This document shows positions 14,608 through 26,763 of a stretch of DNA of 64,000 bases, in pieces. The notes beneath the pieces were generated by a model. The model did not search any database and was not told where the DNA came from. It saw only the letters and a program-made list of their open reading frames with translations. The DNA is from Haloarcula rubra. GTDB taxonomy: Archaea; Halobacteriota; Halobacteria; Halobacteriales; Haloarculaceae. The first letter of the stretch is position 1. The number at the start of each line of letters is the position of its first letter. The stretch is from contig NZ_RKLR01000013.1 in assembly GCF_019599465.1 (NCBI RefSeq), positions 1 to 64,000 of the forward strand. Reading direction: 5' to 3'. The translations under genes were made by a program, and so were the position numbers.

Positions 14608-15333
14608 TCAGTCGTCGAGTCGCACGTCCACGTCGGTCACCGCCACCGTCGTCTCGTCGGTCGTCAGCACACAGGAGACCGTGTCGCCGGCCGCGGGCGT
14701 ACAACTCACCTGTGGCCGGCTATCGAGGTACCGACCCCACGCCTCGTGGCGCGGCGAGGTCACGTTGAGGTAGACGGTGTCGCCTGCCGTCCCGGTCTGT
14801 GCGACTGTCGTCTCGTTGCGGGTCGTCCGGACGCTGGCGGTAGTCTGGCCGCCGACAGACGTCGCCGCCACCGGTCGTGTCCGGACGACGTGAAGCCGTG
14901 CGTAGTCGGCCGTGACGAGCAGTCGCGGCGGTCTGGCCATCACCTGTCCGTCCCGGTCCGCGCGGATGACGGCCCCGTTCGCGTAGACGACCCGCGTCCC
15001 ACTCTTGGCGTCCAGCACGAGCGGACGGGTCTCGACCGTCTTCCGGACCCCGTCGGCCGGGACGTGGACCTCGAACGTCACGTCCTCCCCGACCGACAGC
15101 GAGACGCCGTCGAGTTTCACCGTCGTCGTGCGACTCGGGACGCCCTCGCCGGCGACGTCGTCGACGTTGGCCGCCAGCACCTCGAACGACCGGACGCCGT
15201 TGGTGACTCGTTCCTCGTCGCGCACGTCCTCGAGGGCCGCGAATCCGCCGACGCTGACGAGACCGACCATCACGAGGACGGTGCCGAAGATGACGACGAA
15301 CCCGACGGTCGTGCTCTGAGCGCGGTCGGTCAC
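14608..15333 (-). CDS. Pseudopilin-like protein 5 of pil operon (DUF7289-like)
   Basis: A 241-residue protein beginning MTDRAQSTTVGFVVIFGT: basic residues, a small residue plus Gln/Ser and about 20 hydrophobic residues, as in archaeal class III (PibD-cleaved) pilin signals. The remainder is a predicted extracellular beta domain with two Cys near the C-terminus. It starts at GTG 15333 and overlaps the previous gene by GTGA. It is the last gene of the minus-strand pil operon. The DUF number is from memory. Confidence 0.72.
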   Translation of the reverse strand: MTDRAQSTTVGFVVIFGTVLVMVGLVSVGGFAALEDVRDEERVTNGVRSFEVLAANVDDVAGEGVPSRTTTVKLDGVSLSVGEDVTFEVHVPADGVRKTVETRPLVLDAKSGTRVVYANGAVIRADRDGQVMARPPRLLVTADYARLHVVRTRPVAATSVGGQTTASVRTTRNETTVAQTGTAGDTVYLNVTSPRHEAWGRYLDSRPQVSCTPAAGDTVSCVLTTDETTVAVTDVDVRLDD

Positions 15334-15788
15334 GCGTCCACCTCCAGCGTGTCGGCCCCCTCGTCGTAGGTCACGACGACCGGGCCACCGTCGACGGTCG
15401 TCTCCGCGATTGCGGTGCCGGTCTTGAGGTGGACTGCGACGGAGGTGTCGGCCACGTCGCTCACGAGGACGATACGGTACCGGTAGAACGCGCCCGTATC
15501 CGCTCGCTCGTCGATACTGAGGCGGTACTGCCCGTTCGCGACTCGGTCGGGGAGAGCGGCCCGCACCGTGACCGCCTCGGGTGCGTCGGCCGCCCGGGCC
15601 ATGCTGTCCGCCGAGGTCAACGCCGAGGCGAGGCGGTTCCCGAGGACGGACAACTCAGAGTGGACCGCTTTACTGCGCTCGTCCTCGACGAGCGAGACGG
15701 ATACCGAGAGCAGGGTGACGACGAGCAACAGTGTGATGCCGAGCGTCAGGACGTACCCGACGGCCGTCGAGGCGCCGCGGTCATGCAT
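15330..15788 (-). CDS. Pseudopilin-like protein 4 of pil operon (DUF7266-like)
   Basis: A 152-residue protein starting MHDRGASTAVGYVLTLGIT, then about 20 hydrophobic residues: the same basic-G/A-polar-hydrophobic N-terminus as its neighbours. The extracellular part is short and beta-rich. ATG 15788 is chosen; a GTG and an ATG lie 6-9 nt further upstream in frame. It overlaps the upstream gene by 8 nt and the downstream one by 4 nt. Probably a minor pilin or part of a pilus-tip complex; family name unverified. Confidence 0.7.
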   Translation of the reverse strand: MHDRGASTAVGYVLTLGITLLLVVTLLSVSVSLVEDERSKAVHSELSVLGNRLASALTSADSMARAADAPEAVTVRAALPDRVANGQYRLSIDERADTGAFYRYRIVLVSDVADTSVAVHLKTGTAIAETTVDGGPVVVTYDEGADTLEVDA

Positions 15789-16749
15789 CGGCATCACCCG
15801 CCAGCACCGTCGTCTCGGTGACGTACTCGGTCGTCGGCGTCTCGTAGGTCACTCGAATCGACACACTGTAGATGCGCTCGGTCACGTGCGGGTCGCCGCT
15901 GCCCGCCGTCCCGTAGTCGCTGTCATCGACGAAAGGTCGAGACCGGTCGACGATCATGGAGTAGTTGCCGGCGGCGTTCGAGCCCCAGTAGTAGGCGACG
16001 TCGTAGGAACTCCCGACGGCGTCGAAGCCCGCGACCTGCGGACAGTCGGTCCCTTCGACGGACCCGTTCGAGAGGTCGACGACGGCGTAGCCGTCGGCCC
16101 CCGCCGAGACGGAACACGCGGGCAGTAGCGACCCACTCGTGTCCTGCACCCTCACGACCACGTCGCCGCCCTCCCGGTAGACGAACAGTCGCCAGACGTC
16201 GGCCCCGTCGGCCACGTCGAGGTGGAACACGCGGTCCTCGTGCAACGTGGTCGCGTTGGTGTCGTCCGGCGAGGCGACGAGTGCGCTCTCCGAGACGTTC
16301 AGTCGGGCGTCGCGGGTGCCGGAGACGCCGCTGGCGAGCGTCCAGTTGTCGGCCCCGGACACGTTCGTCATCGGGCGCGTCGCGTTGGCCTGTAGGATTC
16401 GGGTCCCCTCGGTCGTCCCGGTGACCGAGACGGTCGCTCGCGCCCCGCGCCGGGCCGCGTAGCCGTCGGCCTGTTCGCTCCAGTCGGCGACGCCCTCGTC
16501 TAGTTCGGTCTGGAGCGTCGTGTAGCTGGTGTCGTTGTGGCGGTTGACGTACGCGAGCGTCCCGTCCGCCCCCTCGGCGGCCGCGTCGGCGAACGCGACG
16601 GCGTCTCCGCCGTCGGCGTCGTGGCTCGCGACCATCGTCTGGGAGTACGCCGACGCGTTCAGCGCCAGCGCGAGCACCACGAACAGGACGGCGATGCCGA
16701 ACGTCGTCACGAGCAACACCTGTCCGCGGTCACCCCGCTCGCGTCGCAT
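15781..16749 (-). CDS. Pseudopilin-like protein 3 of pil operon (DUF7261-like)
   Basis: A 322-residue protein with an RGQ motif just before the hydrophobic segment (residues ~9-30). A large secreted domain follows with several N-x-S/T sequons and a Cys pair in the C-terminal third. It starts at ATG 16749, sharing one base (TGATG) with the preceding gene. The architecture suits an extracellular minor pilin exported by the PilB/PilC machine encoded upstream. Family number recalled, not checked. Confidence 0.72.
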   Translation of the reverse strand: MRRERGDRGQVLLVTTFGIAVLFVVLALALNASAYSQTMVASHDADGGDAVAFADAAAEGADGTLAYVNRHNDTSYTTLQTELDEGVADWSEQADGYAARRGARATVSVTGTTEGTRILQANATRPMTNVSGADNWTLASGVSGTRDARLNVSESALVASPDDTNATTLHEDRVFHLDVADGADVWRLFVYREGGDVVVRVQDTSGSLLPACSVSAGADGYAVVDLSNGSVEGTDCPQVAGFDAVGSSYDVAYYWGSNAAGNYSMIVDRSRPFVDDSDYGTAGSGDPHVTERIYSVSIRVTYETPTTEYVTETTVLAGDADA

Positions 16750-17342
16750 CAGGTCGACCACAGGACCACCTCCACCCGGACCACGTTGTAGACGCCGCTG
16801 TTCGGGGCGCTGTCCGGTATGTAGAGCGACGCGTTCGCCAGCGTCTGCTCGGTCGGCGTCTCCGCGGCCGTGTAGCGAACGTCGTCGTCGTAGAGCGTGA
16901 GGAACGCGGCGACGCTGACGGCGTCGTCGCTGGGGGTCCCACTGTCGACGACCGCTCTCGTCTCCGTCGCGCCCGACGCGTCGCGATACTGGACGTCGAC
17001 GTTGTAGGCCACGCCGTCGGCGCCGACGCTCCGGTCGAGACGGTCGCCGAAGTCGGTCGGGAGCGTGCCGTTGGCGTAGGCCGACTCGTACGGTTCGAGG
17101 CCGTGGAACGTCCCCGTCGCGTCGTTCCAGTACAGCACCGTCCGGCGGAGCGACCCGTCCTCGACGGCGGCGTCTAGCACGCCGCTCCCGACGCGTTCGA
17201 GTTGCTGCTGCTGGGACTCGCTGGCCGTACTCGCGGTCTGTGGCGTCACGGCCGTCGACTGGAGCGCGAAGACGACGGCGCCGAGGAGGAGGAGTGCAGC
17301 GACGAACGCTTCCAGCGTGTACGCCTGTCCACGGGTCGACAT
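16749..17342 (-). CDS. Pseudopilin-like protein 2 of pil operon (DUF7288-like)
   Basis: A 197-residue protein starting MSTRGQAYTLEAFVAALLLL, a short basic leader with RGQ followed by a hydrophobic helix, then a Gln-rich turn and an extracellular domain. The Glu soon after RGQ recalls the conserved Glu5 of bacterial type IV pilins. ATG 17342 lies 2 nt after the stop of the upstream gene. Part of the continuous pil operon. Confidence 0.72.
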   Translation of the reverse strand: MSTRGQAYTLEAFVAALLLLGAVVFALQSTAVTPQTASTASESQQQQLERVGSGVLDAAVEDGSLRRTVLYWNDATGTFHGLEPYESAYANGTLPTDFGDRLDRSVGADGVAYNVDVQYRDASGATETRAVVDSGTPSDDAVSVAAFLTLYDDDVRYTAAETPTEQTLANASLYIPDSAPNSGVYNVVRVEVVLWST

Positions 17343-17344
17343 CG

Positions 17345-17872
17345 TCACCACACCTCCACTCGTAACGTCGCCGCCGTGCCGTCGAGCGAGACGTGCCGCC
17401 GTGCCGTGGCGACGGACGCGTCGCCGGTGTGGGGCGGGGGTCCGACCGCCAGCGGTGACCCGCCGCTCGAACACGGCACGACGGTCCCGCCGTCGGCACA
17501 CAGTACCTCTCGGGTCGCGTCGCCGGCGACGTCCCGCCGGAGCGTCACGTTCACGCCGTAGCGCTCGCCGACACCGACCTGATCGGTGAGCGTCGCGCTC
17601 GTGTCGAAGGTGGCACAGGGGTTGGCACCGCTCTGGTTGAAGAACCAGAAGGCACAGGTCGAGAGCGTCGTCGTCCCGGGGTCCCCGAGGTGCAACTCGA
17701 CGAGTTGGGTCCCCACCCTGTCCGCGACCAGCGCCGTCTCCTGACCCCCGTCGGTCGGCGTGAGCAGGTCCGGGACGAACAGGAGGACGAACCCGACGAC
17801 GACGAAGAACACCGCCATCCCCGTCAGGAAGTCGATGGGCATCTGCCCCCGCGTCGACGATGCTGGCGCCAT
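17345..17872 (-). CDS. Pseudopilin-like protein 1 of pil operon (DUF7287-like)
   Basis: A 175-residue protein with RGQMPIDF just before a hydrophobic helix (about residues 12-35). The extracellular part has four Cys residues, which could form disulfides in the oxidising exterior. It begins 1 nt after the pilC stop. First of five consecutive genes sharing the RGQ-like leader, so it is probably processed by the prepilin peptidase. Confidence 0.72.
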   Translation of the reverse strand: MAPASSTRGQMPIDFLTGMAVFFVVVGFVLLFVPDLLTPTDGGQETALVADRVGTQLVELHLGDPGTTTLSTCAFWFFNQSGANPCATFDTSATLTDQVGVGERYGVNVTLRRDVAGDATREVLCADGGTVVPCSSGGSPLAVGPPPHTGDASVATARRHVSLDGTAATLRVEVW

Positions 17873-17873
17873 C

Positions 17874-19907
17874 TCACCCCACCACCATCCAGACGGCGAG
17901 CGAAATCGTCAGGAGGACCACGACGAACTTCGCGCCGCCGCGCAGGGTCGCCTCGCGCAGATACCCCGCGATGAGCCCCGCGGAGACGGCCTGTATCGTC
18001 ACCGCGTGGAAGAACATCAGCGAGAGCAGGTCGGCGTCGACCCCGGCCAGCGACATCCCGCCGCCGGTCCGGGCCGTCTGGTCGGCGCCGAACTCCGCCA
18101 TGACGTCGATGAACTGCACTTTCAGCAACGCCATCACGCCCAGCAGGGTGACGTACGTCATCAGGACGATGGCGACCTGCATCAGCGTCCGCGACCGACG
18201 TTCCCGCGCCAGGTCGTCCTGCACCTCGCTCGCCTTCGCGGCCGTCGACAGCACCTCGGAGATGTGACTGGACGCCTCCTGGGCCTTCGTGACGAGTTTC
18301 ACCGTCCGCGCGAGTCGCGGAATCCGGTACTTGTTGTTGAACTCGATGAGCGACTCCTTGAGACTCATCCCGTAGTTGACCTTCCGGTAGATGACTCGGA
18401 ACTCGTCGGCGAGTTTGTCCGAGGACGTCTCCGAGACGGTCTTGATAGATTCGAGCGTCGTCGCGCCGGTGTCGTTGACCGTCGAGAGTTTCAGGAGGGT
18501 GTCCGAGAGGGACCCGAGCAGTGCGCGACGGGAGCGGCGGTCCCACTCGTGGAACACCGCGAGCGGCGTCACGACGAGGAACAGCGGCACGTAGCAGTAG
18601 ACGAACGTCGCCCACACCGGTCGTGCGACGACGCCGTCCCACGACACCGGGACGGCCCCGGAGAGGGCCGCCGCGCCGACCAGCGAGACGGAGGCCGGCA
18701 CGGAGAGGGCGAGGGTGTACAGCGGGTTGTCCCGGAAGAACAGGTGCGGGTTCCGCAACAGGTCGACCGTCTCCTGAAGCCCCTTCTTGCGTTCGATGCG
18801 GTCGAAGATGTGGTAGGTGCCGCTGAAGGCGGTGATGAACCCGAGGTCACGGAGGCCACGTCGACCCTGCGTCTCGAGCCACGCACTCTGCTCGCGCGGT
18901 CGGATGACCCCGTCGCCGAACTCGTCTTGCTTGACCGTCGTGACGAGGACGAGGAAGGCGGCGGCGATGAGCGGAATCAGCCCGTAGACGGTGACGTACA
19001 GCAGTAGCTCCGAGGCGTTCCCGAGCATGTTCATGATGACGAGGATGATGACGAGCAGCAAGGGGAACAGCGACAGCGTGATGTACATCTCCCCGAGGAG
19101 TTCGAGGACGTCGAGCGTCTGTTCCTGCTCCTGTTTGGCCGCTCGCATGTACTTGTGCTTCTTGTTGTCGAGGAACGAGGTCATGTCACCGCCGCTGTTG
19201 ATGACCGCGAGCATGTCGACGAGGAACTCCCGGAGTTCGTCGCTCGGTGTCTGTTCTAGCTGGTGTCGAATCGCCGTCCGGTAGTCGGTGTCCAGCGAGT
19301 TCGTCTCCCTGACGATGGCCTGGAACTCCTGTGATACCTCCCCGTAGGTGTCCTCGGCCTTCGCCATCGCCTCCAGCAGTTCGAGTTGGCTGAGGCCACC
19401 GATGGAGAGGGCGTACATGAACGACACCGAGTCAGAGAGGAGCATGTTTATCTCCCGACGGCGGGCGCTCGCACGCGAGTACGGAATCGCGAGAAGGCCT
19501 CCGAAGCCGAGTCCGAACCCGAGGCCGCCGAGGACGAAGCCGAGGACGACGACGACGAACGGCACGCGGAGCGTCCGGACGAGCGTGACGAGCGTGCTGT
19601 TCTCCGGGAGCGGGACGCCCAGTAAGGGGCCGGACAGGAAGCCGATAGTGGCGAGCAGGTAGCCGAGGGCGATACCGACGAACCAGAGAGCGACCCCCGT
19701 GACGAGACCGACACCGACGGCTCGCGAGAGGTACATCTCGACGGTCACGGGCATCCGCGCCTCGGCGAGTTTCCGCTCTACGGTCGTGACGAACTGGTCG
19801 TCGTCTTCGAACACGTAGTCGTAGACCGGGTAGAACGCGTTCCCGAGTCTGTCCGCGCCCCCCTCGAGCGTGCGGACCGTCGGGTGGTCGCCGGTCTCGG
19901 TACTCAT
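17874..19907 (-). CDS. pilC: Type IV pilus platform protein (T2SS F / PilC family)
   Basis: A 677-residue polytopic membrane protein with two T2SSF domains (about residues 150-290 and 440-590) separated and flanked by hydrophobic clusters. It is the inner-membrane platform through which the ATPase drives pilin assembly. Its length and double domain fit archaeal PilC/TadC-type proteins. It directly abuts the P1-like gene: the TAG at 19908-19910 is followed at once by the ATG at 19907, implying tight translational coupling. Confidence 0.9.
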   Translation of the reverse strand: MSTETGDHPTVRTLEGGADRLGNAFYPVYDYVFEDDDQFVTTVERKLAEARMPVTVEMYLSRAVGVGLVTGVALWFVGIALGYLLATIGFLSGPLLGVPLPENSTLVTLVRTLRVPFVVVVLGFVLGGLGFGLGFGGLLAIPYSRASARRREINMLLSDSVSFMYALSIGGLSQLELLEAMAKAEDTYGEVSQEFQAIVRETNSLDTDYRTAIRHQLEQTPSDELREFLVDMLAVINSGGDMTSFLDNKKHKYMRAAKQEQEQTLDVLELLGEMYITLSLFPLLLVIILVIMNMLGNASELLLYVTVYGLIPLIAAAFLVLVTTVKQDEFGDGVIRPREQSAWLETQGRRGLRDLGFITAFSGTYHIFDRIERKKGLQETVDLLRNPHLFFRDNPLYTLALSVPASVSLVGAAALSGAVPVSWDGVVARPVWATFVYCYVPLFLVVTPLAVFHEWDRRSRRALLGSLSDTLLKLSTVNDTGATTLESIKTVSETSSDKLADEFRVIYRKVNYGMSLKESLIEFNNKYRIPRLARTVKLVTKAQEASSHISEVLSTAAKASEVQDDLARERRSRTLMQVAIVLMTYVTLLGVMALLKVQFIDVMAEFGADQTARTGGGMSLAGVDADLLSLMFFHAVTIQAVSAGLIAGYLREATLRGGAKFVVVLLTISLAVWMVVG

Positions 19908-20303
19908 CTATGCCCCCGTCTCGTCGTCTGAGTCCGTGTCCTCGCCGGCGTCGAGCGATCGCTCGTCGTCCGACGTCTCCCCGACAGCGTCCGCTGGTCC
20001 GGGCCCCTCGTCGTCGTCGAACAGGGTATCGAGCGACCCGCTATCCGAGGGGCCGTCGTCCACGGCGGCGGGTTCGAGGTCCGTGTCGTCGCCGTCGTCG
20101 GGCACCGCGAGTGCGGCCTCGCCCGCCGGCATAGTCTCGGCTTTCGTCGCGGCGAGGTCGACGTCTTCGAGTGCGGCCACGATGGCTTTCACTCGGGATT
20201 CGGTGACCTCCTCGCCCGCGGACTCGAGGACAGCCGTGAGGTTCGATTCGTCGATCTCCGCGCCGGTCTCGTGCAGGATGAGTGCTGCGTAAACGTATTC
20301 CAT
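19908..20303 (-). CDS. Ribosomal stalk protein P1 (L12)-like paralogue
   Basis: A 131-residue protein whose first ~57 residues ([26 protein letters not shown]) closely match the N-terminal dimerisation and P0-binding domain of archaeal ribosomal protein P1 (L12E). The Ala-rich hinge is replaced by an Asp/Ser-rich acidic region. The canonical C-terminal GLGELFG-type factor-binding tail is absent or reduced to an internal [11 protein letters not shown]. No P0, L1 or L11 genes are nearby. The gene lies 6 nt after pilB and 0 nt before pilC. It probably has a non-ribosomal or bridging role; the resemblance is seen, the role inferred. Confidence 0.8.
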
Positions 20304-20309
20304 GGTGTA

Positions 20310-22925
20310 TCACTCCGTGTCGCCGTCGGTCCGTTCGTCGCCCTGTTCCACGACCACGGGGTCGGCAAGGGGGGCCGTCCCCATCCCGTCGGCCGCCAGC
20401 CCGCTCCGTATCTCGGCGCCCTTCGCCCGCGCGTGTTCCGGCAGTGCGTCCATCAGCGAGAACGCGTCGCGGTCGCGGTACTCCTCGAAGAGTGTCCCGT
20501 CGGCGGTGTCGAGAATCTCTCTGGCCGCCTGTCGCGTCTCTGGGTCCGGGTCCGGTCGCGGGACGACCGCTTCCTTCTCCGGGTCGATGTCTATCTCGAC
20601 GCTCTCCATCTCCCGGAGGTCCGAGAGGCTCTCGCCGAGTTCCCCCCGGGCCAGCAGTGCGAGAATCGCCTCGGGGTCGTTGATGAACGCCTGCAGCGTC
20701 GCGGCGACCTCCGCGTAGTCGTTGAGGTCGCTGTCGACGAGGTACGCCAGCACGACCTTCCGCTTGAACAGTTCCGTCTGGAGGCGGTCGTGGTCCCACC
20801 CCCTGTCGAACTGTATCTCCTGGAGCGTGTTCGAGCGACCGAGTTGCAGGAACTCGTCGCTCTCGGGTTGCCACTCGAAGATGTCGCGGATGTTTATCTC
20901 GTCGTTCTCGGCGTCGTAGTGGTTGACCTCGGTTATCGTCTTGTTCCGCCGGACCTTGCGGCCCTGCACCCGGGTCTGGGTCTGAATCGAGACGAGGTCG
21001 AGGCCGGTGAACATCGTCTTCGAGACGTTGATGGGGTCCGTCGTGAACCGCTTCAGCACCTCGCCGACGGAGTCGGCGTGGAACGTCGTCAGCGTCGTGT
21101 GCCCCGTCGACATGATCTGGAACAGCGTGCGGCCCTCCTCGCCGCGGACCTCGCCCATGACGATGAACTCCGGCCGCTGGCGGAGCGCCGCTTCCAGCAG
21201 GTCGAACTCGTCGACGTCGCCCACGTCGTCCTCGCCGAAGGAGGGGCGGGTGACGCTGGCGACCCAGTTGCGCTGTGGCAACTCGACCTCGCGGGTGTCC
21301 TCGATGGAGACTATCTTCGAGTTCGAGGGGATGAACAGCGAGACGGCGTTCAGACTCGTCGTCTTCCCGGACGCCGTCCCACCGGCGAAGATGAGGCTCC
21401 GGTTGTTCTCGATGGCGAGCCAGAGGAACGCCATCTCCTCCAGCGAGAACGTGTTCCAGTTGATGAGGTCGATGGGGGTGAACGGGACGTCCTTGAACTG
21501 CCGAATCGTGTAGTTGGTCCCGTGGTCCGAGACCTCCCGACCCAGCGTCAACTGGGCGCGAGAGCCGTCCGGCAGCGTCGCGTCGACCTGCGGTCGCCGC
21601 TTCGAGATGCCCTTCCCCGAGCGCTGTGCGAGTTTGACGACGAAGTTGTCCAGTCCCGTCTCGTCGTGGCTGACGTTCGTGATGACGTTCTCGTACTCCG
21701 TGTGGTAGACGAAGACCGGCGAGTCGTAGCCGTCACAGGAGATGTCCTCGACGTTGACGTCGTGCTTGATGGCGTCGATGCGCTCGTAGCCGAGGAAGTC
21801 GCGCTGGAGTTCGTACAGGAGGCGCTCGACCTGTGCCTCCGTCAGCGTCCCGGCGTCCTCCTCGATGACCGCCGGTTCGGGTCGGGCCGCGAGACCCTGT
21901 AGCTCCCGATCGGAGCGCTCCACGGCCTCGCCGATGTCGAACAGGTCCTTGAACTGCCCGACGACGCTGTCGTCTCGGACGCCGTCGCGGAGGTCGTACT
22001 GGTCCAAGAGCCGGAGCGTCTCCGAGCGGATGACGTCGGCTCTGTCGGCCTCGCTGCCGTCGATGAGGGCGTCCTCGTCGGAGTACTTCACCGCCGTCCT
22101 GAGGCGGCCGGTCAGGTACTCCTTGACCCGCGCCTCGATGTCGTTCATGTACGGTTCGACGACGGTGTACTTCTTCTCGTTCTCCTTGATGGAGTGGAAG
22201 ACGACGACGCAGGCGTAGGGTTTGTTCACCCAGTAGCGCTCCACCTCGACGAAGTGACGCTTCTTCTCCATCGGGACCGCCTTCTCCAGGTCGTAGCGGT
22301 TGGCGAGCGTCGTCAGCCCGTCGTGGGTCGAGAAGAAGCTGTCCTCGTCGATCTCGGGGTTGACGTTGACCGTGCGCCGGTCGACGATGTCGTCGACGGC
22401 CGCGGCGAAGTCGCTGGCCCGCGTGAGACGGTCCTCCATCTCCTCGGGCGGGAAGCCGAGGAACGATTCCGGGTCGAACGGCTCGGCGGTCCCGTCGCCG
22501 TCGCTCGGCGGGTGGCCGTCCTCGTCGTAGTGGTACTCCCACTTGAAGTGTTCCCACGTGTACGCGTCTTTCGTGACCGGCGTGGCCGCTATCCACTCGG
22601 CGTACTGGTCGTAGAGCCGGTTTGCGTTCGCCTTCGCGTGGCCGACGCGTGCGGGGAACTCGTCCGGGTGACACCCGAGGTACGTCGCGGGCGAGAACTC
22701 TGTCGCCGCCCAGTCTCGCGTCCGGACGGGCGCATCGTCGGTCGTCTTCCTACCGAAGGCCCCGAGGACGCCGCCGTCGTCGTCGGACTGCTCCGTCTCG
22801 ACGATTCGCTCGACGTCCGCGCTGTACCCCATCTCGGCCAGCAGGTCGTCCCACGTGTACGTGCCGACCGCGACCGGGCGGTCCCGCTGGTCGTCGTCCG
22901 TGGGCGGTCCGGACGCGGACGTCAC
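20310..22925 (-). CDS. pilB: Type IV pilus assembly ATPase (T2SS E / PilB family)
   Basis: An 871-residue cytosolic hexameric ATPase. The Walker A GGTASGKTT is at about residues 515-523, followed by an Asp box (SIEDTREVEL), Walker B (FIVMGEVRGEEG) and a His box with STGHTTLTTFHAD. A long N-terminal region of about 400 residues is acidic and archaeal-specific. It powers pilus extension together with PilC. GTG 22925 is the likely start; a 19-codon frame overlaps it by GTGA and may be a leader. Confidence 0.92.
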   Translation of the reverse strand: MTSASGPPTDDDQRDRPVAVGTYTWDDLLAEMGYSADVERIVETEQSDDDGGVLGAFGRKTTDDAPVRTRDWAATEFSPATYLGCHPDEFPARVGHAKANANRLYDQYAEWIAATPVTKDAYTWEHFKWEYHYDEDGHPPSDGDGTAEPFDPESFLGFPPEEMEDRLTRASDFAAAVDDIVDRRTVNVNPEIDEDSFFSTHDGLTTLANRYDLEKAVPMEKKRHFVEVERYWVNKPYACVVVFHSIKENEKKYTVVEPYMNDIEARVKEYLTGRLRTAVKYSDEDALIDGSEADRADVIRSETLRLLDQYDLRDGVRDDSVVGQFKDLFDIGEAVERSDRELQGLAARPEPAVIEEDAGTLTEAQVERLLYELQRDFLGYERIDAIKHDVNVEDISCDGYDSPVFVYHTEYENVITNVSHDETGLDNFVVKLAQRSGKGISKRRPQVDATLPDGSRAQLTLGREVSDHGTNYTIRQFKDVPFTPIDLINWNTFSLEEMAFLWLAIENNRSLIFAGGTASGKTTSLNAVSLFIPSNSKIVSIEDTREVELPQRNWVASVTRPSFGEDDVGDVDEFDLLEAALRQRPEFIVMGEVRGEEGRTLFQIMSTGHTTLTTFHADSVGEVLKRFTTDPINVSKTMFTGLDLVSIQTQTRVQGRKVRRNKTITEVNHYDAENDEINIRDIFEWQPESDEFLQLGRSNTLQEIQFDRGWDHDRLQTELFKRKVVLAYLVDSDLNDYAEVAATLQAFINDPEAILALLARGELGESLSDLREMESVEIDIDPEKEAVVPRPDPDPETRQAAREILDTADGTLFEEYRDRDAFSLMDALPEHARAKGAEIRSGLAADGMGTAPLADPVVVEQGDERTDGDTE

Positions 22926-23366: not shown

Positions 23367-23990
23367 TCAAGCTATATCTCGGCTGGTGTCGATGGCGACT
23401 TCCTGCGTCAGTTCGAGTTTCACCGTCTCGTCGAACGGCGCACCGCCCCGGAACTTCGGCACGATGAGGCGGTTCTCGATACTCTCGCCCCGGACCTCCG
23501 TCGAGAGCTCGAAGATGATGTCGGCGAGGTACTCGGTGACGTCGCGCTGGACGGGGACCTGCCGACCGTCGAGGCCGTGCATGACCGCGAAGCTATCTTT
23601 CTCGGCGAGTTCGTCGCGGACGTCGTTGAGGAAGTGGAGGTACTCCTGGGTGTTCCCCGTTTCGAGCATGTCGACCGTGTCGACGACGATAGTCGACTGG
23701 GCCGGACTGTCGCGGATGACCTGATACGTCTCTTTCAGCGGGCGCTCGCCGATAGCGTACAGGTCCGTGGTGTCGAGCGTCCCGCCGGCGTTCCGCATCG
23801 CGGTCCCGACCGCCCGCTTCGACCGTGCCGTGGTGAGATAGGCTGTCCGCCGCGGGGTGGTCAGCTCGTAGAGGAACTGTTCGGACTGGCTCGCCGGGTC
23901 CGCAGAGAGGAGCGCGAGGCTCCCCGGCGGGACGCCGCCGTTCAGTTTCCGGTCCAACACGTCGATGCCCGTCCGGAGGACACGCGTCAT
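23367..23990 (-). CDS. RecA-fold (RAD55/KaiC-like) protein with degenerate P-loop
   Basis: A 207-residue protein resembling haloarchaeal RAD55/KaiC-type ATPases. It has the start TGIDVLDRKLNGGVPPGSL and a Walker B-like STIVVDTVDML. The Walker A position reads LSADPASQSE, without the GK(S/T) lysine, so nucleotide hydrolysis is doubtful. It lies between the pil operon (same strand) and the pilin gene, which suggests a regulatory role in piliation. Partners unknown. Confidence 0.78.
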   Translation of the reverse strand: MTRVLRTGIDVLDRKLNGGVPPGSLALLSADPASQSEQFLYELTTPRRTAYLTTARSKRAVGTAMRNAGGTLDTTDLYAIGERPLKETYQVIRDSPAQSTIVVDTVDMLETGNTQEYLHFLNDVRDELAEKDSFAVMHGLDGRQVPVQRDVTEYLADIIFELSTEVRGESIENRLIVPKFRGGAPFDETVKLELTQEVAIDTSRDIA

Positions 23991-24437: not shown

Positions 24438-24854
24438 ATGCAACTACGAAACCTCAAAGCACTGTTCGCAGACGACGACGCGGTCTCACCGGTCATCGGC
24501 GTCGTGCTGATGGTCGCGATTACGGTCATCCTCGCAGCCGTCATCGGGTCGTTCGTGCTCGGGCTGGGCAGCTCGACGAGCGCGACGCCGCAGGCGAGTT
24601 TCACGTTCGACTACGATAGCGGAAACGTGACTATCGCCCACGACGGCGGTGACACCCTCAGCAAGGCAAACCTAAAAATTACGGACAGCAACAGTGACGA
24701 CCTTTCGATATCGGGGGCTGCGCCCTCGGAGATATCGGCAGGCGACGAGCTCGTGTCGAGCGGCACCTACGACTCGGGCGAGACCATCAAGGTCGTCTAC
24801 AACTCGCCGAACAGCGACAAGAGCGCGGTCCTCGCCACGTCGACGGCACCGTGA
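24438..24854 (+). CDS. pilA: Type IV pilin (PilA family)
   Basis: A 138-residue archaeal type IV pilin. The N-terminus has the classic class III signal [25 protein letters not shown], cut here short: prepilin peptidase cleaves before the SPVIG hydrophobic stretch, which forms the pilus core helix. The exposed domain is Ser/Thr/Asp-rich and beta-like. It is the major structural candidate for the machine encoded by pilB and pilC on the other strand. Confidence 0.92.
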
Positions 24855-24981: not shown

Positions 24982-26763
24982 ATGAACGCAGACACGACCC
25001 GACGAACCGAGGAGACGGGCACTACGACCAGCGGTCGCCGGACGACCGCACGCGGCCAGTCGGAGGTCATCGCCGTCGTCCTGTTGCTGGTCGTCGTCGT
25101 TCTGAGCCTGTCCGTCCTCGTCGCGAGCGGGACGACGGCCATCGTCGAGACGCGCGACAGAGCGGAGATAGGCGCCGCCGAACACGCGTTCGCGGCGTTC
25201 GATACCGACGTGAGCGCCGTCGCGTTCGGCCAGTCCCGCGCGAGTACCGATCTGGGCCTGCGTGCCAACGACGGCGAGGTACGGTACCACGACACCGGGT
25301 GGGTTCGCGTCGTGGTCGACAACGAGACGAGCGCCGAGGCCGTCGTCGTGAACGAGTCGCTCGGGACGGTGCAGTACAGGCAGGGCGAGACGACCATCGC
25401 GTCACAGGGTGGCGGCGTCTGGCGGCGTGACGGCGACGGGTCGGTGATGCTTTCTCGGCCCGAGTTCCACTACCGAGACCGAACCTTGACGCTCCCACTC
25501 GTCTCCATGGACGGAGAGACGGGGCTATCGAGCCGACTCGACAGCCGGCCCGACGGCGCGCCGGTCCAGCGGTACCCGAACCGGACGCTCGGGTTCTCGA
25601 ACCCGCCCGACAGCGGGTCGGTGACGGTGACGGTCCAGAGCGAGTACTACGACGCGTGGGGTCGCCACTTCGAGGCCGAGACCGACGCCATCGTGAGCTA
25701 CGACCACGCGAACGAGCGCGTGACCGTCACGTTCGTCGTCTTGCCGGGCCACACCACCTTCGACGCTGGCATCATCGCGACGTCGAGTACGGGTGAACTG
25801 GCCGTCGCGGGGACCGGCGCCTACGTGAACAGCTACGACTCCGCCGACGGGAACTACTCGCAGACTCGCTCGGCGGACGGGCTGATACAGTCGGCTGGCG
25901 ACGTCACGGCGTCGGGGAACTCGCTCGTCGACGGCGACGTCAACTCAGGGGGGACGATCGAACTGCAGGGCAGTACGACCATCAACGGAAGCGTCTACTG
26001 GACGAAGGTCCCCGAACCGGACAGCACCAAAGTATCGGGCGAGGTGAGTTCTAGCAACGGCGTACAGTCGGTGAATCCCATCGACACGTTCGTCGCGACG
26101 TACGCCCAGCGTGTCAGAGACCGGAACGACAACGACCGGACGTCGGCCATCAGCGACGAGCAACTCACGATAACGGGGTCGTCCGCCGAACTCGACGCGG
26201 GTCGGTACTACGTCCACAACGTCACGCTGGACGGCGAGTCCATGACGCTGAACACCACCGACGGCGACGTGACGGTGGTCGTTCGCGACTACGTGAAACT
26301 GGAACAGGGCGGGAATCTCACCGTCGAGGGCGACGGCATCGCTCGTCTCGTCGTCGCCGGCGAGAACGACACGACCGTCTCGCCGACGGGGCTCGGGAGC
26401 AAAGCTGTCAACTTCCACGTCGGCAAGGGCAGCGCCGTCCACGTTCCCGGCGAAGACTCGCGGCACCTCAGAGTGTACGGCAACCGGTCGTTCAACGCGA
26501 CTATCGCCGGTTCGAACAGCAACCGGGCGAGTTTCGACGGCCTCGTCTACGCGCCGGCGGGCACCGACGGGAGCGGCTACGTCTACATCAAACAGGGCGA
26601 CCTGTACGGCCTCGCCGTGACCGGTAACCTCACCGTCGGCCAGTACGGCGCCGCCCACTACGACTACGGGCTCAAGGGCAAGACCCGGATACGCTCGCCG
26701 TTCTCGGAGCTAGAGCAACTGTACGTCACAGTCCACCGAGTGCGAATCGAGTCTGGGAGCTAA
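24982..26763 (+). CDS. Large pseudopilin-like secreted protein (DUF7289/DUF7305-like)
   Basis: A 593-residue protein with a 24-residue basic leader ending ARGQ, a hydrophobic helix (about residues 27-50), and a long extracellular region with many N-x-S/T sequons. The second half (from about residue 270) has repeated short beta strands with Gly/Asn turns, like polymer-forming (bactofilin-like) or right-handed solenoid domains. It follows pilA by 127 nt. It may decorate the pilus or be a secreted cargo. Domain names are from memory. Confidence 0.75.
   Translation: MNADTTRRTEETGTTTSGRRTTARGQSEVIAVVLLLVVVVLSLSVLVASGTTAIVETRDRAEIGAAEHAFAAFDTDVSAVAFGQSRASTDLGLRANDGEVRYHDTGWVRVVVDNETSAEAVVVNESLGTVQYRQGETTIASQGGGVWRRDGDGSVMLSRPEFHYRDRTLTLPLVSMDGETGLSSRLDSRPDGAPVQRYPNRTLGFSNPPDSGSVTVTVQSEYYDAWGRHFEAETDAIVSYDHANERVTVTFVVLPGHTTFDAGIIATSSTGELAVAGTGAYVNSYDSADGNYSQTRSADGLIQSAGDVTASGNSLVDGDVNSGGTIELQGSTTINGSVYWTKVPEPDSTKVSGEVSSSNGVQSVNPIDTFVATYAQRVRDRNDNDRTSAISDEQLTITGSSAELDAGRYYVHNVTLDGESMTLNTTDGDVTVVVRDYVKLEQGGNLTVEGDGIARLVVAGENDTTVSPTGLGSKAVNFHVGKGSAVHVPGEDSRHLRVYGNRSFNATIAGSNSNRASFDGLVYAPAGTDGSGYVYIKQGDLYGLAVTGNLTVGQYGAAHYDYGLKGKTRIRSPFSELEQLYVTVHRVRIESGS

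Follow-up and report, generated by a model that had tools for sequence, protein, structure and literature searches.

A ribosomal stalk P1-like gene between pilB and pilC in haloarchaeal type IV pilus loci

The pilus locus and its P1-like gene

The window, by which is meant the whole 64,000-nucleotide stretch of Haloarcula rubra DNA analysed here, holds a type IV pilus locus lying largely on the reverse strand. Its core consists of a gene for a PilB3-like, pilB-type secretion ATPase (20310..22925, reverse strand, 871 aa; T2SSE E 4e-29, PilB3_C E 2e-6) and one for a pilC-type membrane platform (17874..19907, reverse strand, 677 aa; T2SSF E 6e-28), domain matches that bear out the names both genes had been given in the preliminary description. 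Behind pilC and on the same strand come operon members encoding a pilin-like DUF7287 protein (17345..17872; PF23958 E 3e-31), a DUF7288 protein (16749..17348; PF23959 E 7e-58), a protein of about 320 aa whose start codon is uncertain (15781..16748; a 74% identical ORF lies in locus L116 and a 314-aa counterpart in Haloferax mediterranei), a DUF7266 protein (15330..15797; PF23928 E 9e-24) and a DUF7289 protein (14608..15333; PF23960 E 1e-53). A DUF7125 KaiC-like gene lies upstream of pilB (23367..23990, reverse strand; PF23442 E 2e-60), and beyond it the forward strand carries a type IV pilin (24438..24854; Pilin_N PF07790 E 2e-25) and an adjoining DUF7289/DUF7305 protein (24982..26763). Features of a PilB3-type system seen in the window are an adjacent PilB ATPase and PilC platform together with a type IV pilin and pilin-like DUF genes.

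Between the two motor genes sits an open reading frame of 131 aa with an ATG start (19908..20303, reverse strand). The gap to the pilB stop (20310) is 6 nt and the pilC start (19907) abuts the gene directly (0 nt), and the ORF coordinates agree with the placement first described. We use P1x as a label for tail-less P1 copies sited between pilB and pilC, a placement common to ten loci.

The initial reading of the N-terminus as P1-like is upheld by sequence and structure alike. The archaeal P1 profile TIGR03685 (ribo_P1_arch) matches residues 1–71 at E 5.7e-19 and 68.4 bits, a score that does not reach the curated equivalog cut-off of 100 bits; the Pfam match to PF00428 (E 1.6e-4) is under its family cut-off, and the P1 chain of PDB 3a1y is matched at E 7e-14 (phmmer). 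The top Foldseek match of the AF2 model is again 3a1y_A (E 7e-4, TM by target 0.78), and a VIA comparison of the model with this chain gives Z 8.2, P1 and P2 chains heading the VIA list (Z 7.2–8.4). These matches establish a P1-type N-terminal domain in P1x, which the profile search places inside the P1/L12E family.

Given such an N-terminus, it might be expected that P1x is the real stalk protein residing in an odd locus. A canonical P1 is, however, encoded in the same genome on another contig (G000:C35:131050-131394), where it scores 121.9 bits, above the TIGR03685 cut-off, ends in GLGELFG and adjoins P0 and L1, so that P1x indeed lies away from these genes, as had been noted at the outset. 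Among the named loci, the P0–P1 region of this genome is closest to that of Haloarcula, at 83–86% DNA identity. A second, other P1 is also found in the remaining eight P1x genomes searched. Since the genome already has its canonical P1 next to P0 and L1, P1x is not the stalk protein, a reading whose probability is practically nil and which we regard as already refuted.

Occurrence and surroundings of P1x

P1x lies between pilB and pilC at ten loci in three haloarchaeal families, with pilB–P1x spacings of −4 to 6 nt. Nine P1x genomes were identified among 392 of the order (G000, G011, G022, G024, G118, G214, G282, G308 and G438), and the tenth locus is on plasmid pHME505 of H. mediterranei, where the P1x ORF is missing from the PLSDB gene table. 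At all ten, pilB, P1x and pilC are succeeded by genes for DUF7287, DUF7288, DUF7266 and DUF7289 proteins and accompanied by the DUF7125 KaiC-like gene, and most also hold a Pilin_N pilin and a DUF7305 protein. Neither DUF7125 nor pilin genes were found in the stretches examined at the genome's own pilB3–pilC3 locus (C35) or at twenty other P1x-free pilB loci (about 5 kb upstream). The missing pilin genes at these housekeeping loci fit a published remark that in H. volcanii no pilins are encoded at the PilB3 locus (PMC4858521).

P1x is not a constant component of PilB3-type pilus systems, since the housekeeping pilB3–pilC3 loci lack it, as do two plasmid loci (L222 and L224; Halobaculum halophilum and Salinibaculum sp. 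KK48) that are self-contained and carry DUF7125 and pilin-like genes. Given that these two related loci do without it, P1x is an accessory that this pilus type does not require, and it marks a single lineage of the system and not the whole of it. On Halorubrum lacusprofundi pHLAC01 (L223), a pilB homologue breaks off immediately before the gene for an IS5-like ISHla2 transposase, and no pilC follows.

The motor proteins of the P1x loci group together. In the PilB tree the P1x rows cluster with one long-branched P1x-free row (L213), and the P1x label takes two changes, where shuffled labels average about 9, in what is a quick tree with an open fork. In the PilC tree 29 P1x-free rows form a set (SH-aLRT 92) that includes no P1x row, again with two label changes. 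The trees are compatible with a single origin of the P1x loci.

Most of the genomes surveyed, 146 in the family and 392 in the order, hold one P1. A single P1 is also the rule in about 200 genomes from elsewhere in the phylum, outside the haloarchaea, the exceptions being a few with none and one with three. Complete-tailed second copies occur in Natrialbaceae and other families (L168–L178; L225, NZ_CP100446.1:336727-337050), one of them plasmid-borne and close to genes for Hsp20 and universal stress protein, and it is possible that such copies provide an alternative ribosomal stalk. Extra copies not linked to a pil locus proved to be ordinary tailed duplicates: all 11 inspected keep the hinge and a GLG.LFG end, and five further genomes hold a second P1. 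With nine linked copies tail-less and 11 unlinked copies tailed, the association of tail loss with pil linkage has a chance of 1 in C(20,9), or 6e-6, a figure that assumes independent copies, although those from related species do not satisfy this.

The retained N-terminal domain and the altered tail

The N-terminal P1 domain, of the dimerisation and P0-binding type, spans residues 1–50 (20154..20303, reverse strand). In same-genus pairs its 50 codons give a dN/dS of about 0.25–0.31 (~0.27), indicating purifying selection, compared with 0.5–0.75 for the tail and 0.17 for PilB and PilC. Since ten loci share the placement and this domain is under purifying selection, the position of P1x is not a matter of chance. 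A P1 copy might nevertheless have entered the pil operon of an ancestor, to persist there as a passenger, functionless or kept only for translational coupling of pilC, and the fast evolution of the gene (71% identity against 92% for PilB and PilC between the two nearest genomes), the remnant of only 62 aa at L147 and the absence of P1x from related loci could all be read in this way. The lower dN/dS of the domain relative to the tail and the retention of the P1 domain across three families argue otherwise, and make a mere passenger distinctly unlikely.

The AF2 model, built on a 44-row alignment, has confident helices at residues 2–13, 19–28 and 35–56, with a pLDDT of about 90 over residues 1–45, and a disordered tail. 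A separate helix 4 (50–58) appears in the control model of a canonical P1 (L008) and not in that of P1x, a contrast between single-chain models on an alignment of mostly canonical P1; in P1/P2 this helix is part of the dimer interface (PMC4379515). Ala7 and Leu41, invariant in 117 canonical P1, are variable in P1x, and the 31–35 loop is relaxed; most other canonical invariants are kept. The varied Ala7 and Leu41 and the missing separate helix 4 are as expected if the partner of P1x has changed. In the P1 domain tree nine of the ten P1x cluster, a grouping that lacks strong support on too few columns.

The first 50 residues of P1x, being near canonical P1, would also fit continued P0 binding. 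P1x may still mount on ribosomal P0, as a homodimer or as a heterodimer with P1, its altered tail linking ribosomes to the pilus machine or making a specialised ribosome for pilus proteins. Residues 1–50 of the window copy are 74–82% identical to most canonical P1 (over BLAST segments), M1, Y3, A6, L10, E19, R37 and V42 are retained in all ten copies, and helix 3, which in eukaryotes is reported to lie towards P0 (PMC4379515), is mostly retained; eukaryotic P1/P2 are moreover known to exchange on and off ribosomes (PMC3794596). Set against this are the strict linkage to pilB–pilC, the relaxation of Ala7 and Leu41 with an altered helix 4 region, and the missing GTPase-binding end, without which a stalk would be crippled, and we consider mounting on P0 unlikely. 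That a stalk dimer exapted as a structural or regulatory part of the motor would physically couple ribosomes or translation state to pilus assembly seems more doubtful again, and a ribosome-linked role keeps some plausibility in view of how much of the P0-binding domain P1x retains.

The remainder of P1x (19911..20153, reverse strand) is an acidic tail predicted to be disordered. Alanine, proline and glycine make up 0.47 of its hinge stretch in the window copy (0.24–0.59 across P1x copies), where 117 canonical copies average 0.79, and the terminal LFG factor-binding motif stands at the C-terminus of none of the ten P1x; binding of EF1A by aP1 requires these last three residues, Leu-Phe-Gly (PMC6791870). 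The preliminary description had the hinge and GLGELFG-type tail replaced by an acidic region, of which the losses hold and the replacement does not: aspartate and glutamate account for 0.37 of the window tail and on average 0.42 of canonical tails, and because canonical tails are equally acidic, what distinguishes P1x is a reduced hinge and a missing LFG, not a gained acidic region. An internal LDTLF (residues 91–95; 20019..20033, reverse strand) is also kept, with the L..LF spacing of GLGELFG. This LDTLF/LDALF occurs in three of the four same-genus P1x (the window copy, L116 and L118) and in none of the six others, with a shuffle chance of about 0.01, and may be a relic or a shared docking motif.

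Acidic tails are also found on PilB. At many P1x-free haloarchaeal loci (L124, L126–L130, L133) PilB has a long acidic C-terminal tail of up to about 450 aa with repeated SIFG/SVFGG or L..LF motifs, those at some loci resembling the internal LDTLF of P1x, and at L145 (G214) in-frame tandem repeats are present in the adjoining PilB tail (DEPTSEAM) and P1x tail (DPAME). The idea that the P1x tail substitutes for a PilB tail was rejected, PilB tail length being unrelated to P1x presence.

Proposed role and comparison with known systems

The association of P1x with the pilus is supported by the ten syntenic loci, the grouping of PilB and PilC, the shared pilin-like genes and DUF7125, and purifying selection. 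The best reading, to which we give roughly even credence, is that P1x is a diverged paralogue of ribosomal stalk P1 now working for a haloarchaeal type IV pilus system that is duplicated and self-contained, and we judge the case finely balanced for its exaptation as a dimeric accessory of the PilB–PilC motor. P1x would be co-translated with PilB and PilC, and its N-terminal domain should still be able to form a homodimer. Such a dimer may clasp a helix of PilB, PilC or another locus protein (perhaps DUF7125) in place of the P0 spine helix, and its two disordered acidic tails could act as flexible arms that aid motor assembly or regulation.

Several observations count against an accessory of the motor. 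The ORFs of the ten loci yielded no helix resembling the P0 spine: an HMM built from 63 haloarchaeal P0 spines matched only P0 (others at E of at least 2.9). Residues or insertions specific to P1x loci were sought in PilB and PilC as marks of a binding site, a candidate that fell away with only five scattered columns in each and short N-terminal length differences. The two P1x-free self-contained loci and the 62-aa copy at L147 weigh in the same direction. In place of a motor part, P1x could regulate the operon as a dimer, acting for instance on transcription or assembly, or be a decoy titrating P1, and the model does bear a weak likeness to winged-helix dimers such as the N-termini of Fur and ArgR (VIA Z 3.5–4.4, a level usual for small helical folds). 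These scores are well under those of the P1 matches, the tail is nearly without Lys or Arg, and a site between two motor genes better suits a stoichiometric part, leaving a regulator or decoy very improbable.

The evidence suggests that a piece of the translation machine has been reused as a pilus part. The observation behind the preliminary description was right and is stronger than stated there; its proposal that a P1 domain had been recruited to a pilus motor is plausible and partly supported, in that recruitment to the pilus system is borne out by the syntenic loci, the PilB/PilC grouping and the selection on the domain. No earlier description of P1 in type IV pili, for which none was known at the outset, was found in the literature searched, which is not proof of absence, and the main text of the Makarova census mentions no ribosomal proteins (PMC4858521). 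If this reading is true, duplication of a core translation protein has been followed by loss of the end that recruits GTPases and by fixation of the copy in the operon of a secretion-type motor. Archaeal type IV pili would then have in P1x a new component that is defined and open to testing, with a cultivated host in H. mediterranei, and it raises the question of how a stalk dimer gains another helix as its partner, or whether there is coupling between ribosomes and pili.

P1x shares with archaeal stalk P1 (L12E, aP1; TIGR03685, 3a1y) an N-terminal helical domain of the dimerisation type and an acidic, disordered C-terminal half, and differs from it in its reduced hinge, in the lack of a terminal GLxxLFG and, in the model, of a separate helix 4, in its distance from P0 and in being a second copy in the genome. 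The extra tailed P1 copies of Natrialbaceae and other families are, like P1x, paralogues additional to canonical P1, but they keep the hinge and GLG.LFG end and are unlinked to a pilB–pilC locus. The haloarchaeal PilB3–PilC3 motor, clade 2 in the census (Makarova et al. 2016, PMC4858521), has the same PilB3-like ATPase and T2SSF platform in closely related sequences, whereas the locus described here places P1x between the two genes and brings its own pilin-like genes and DUF7125.
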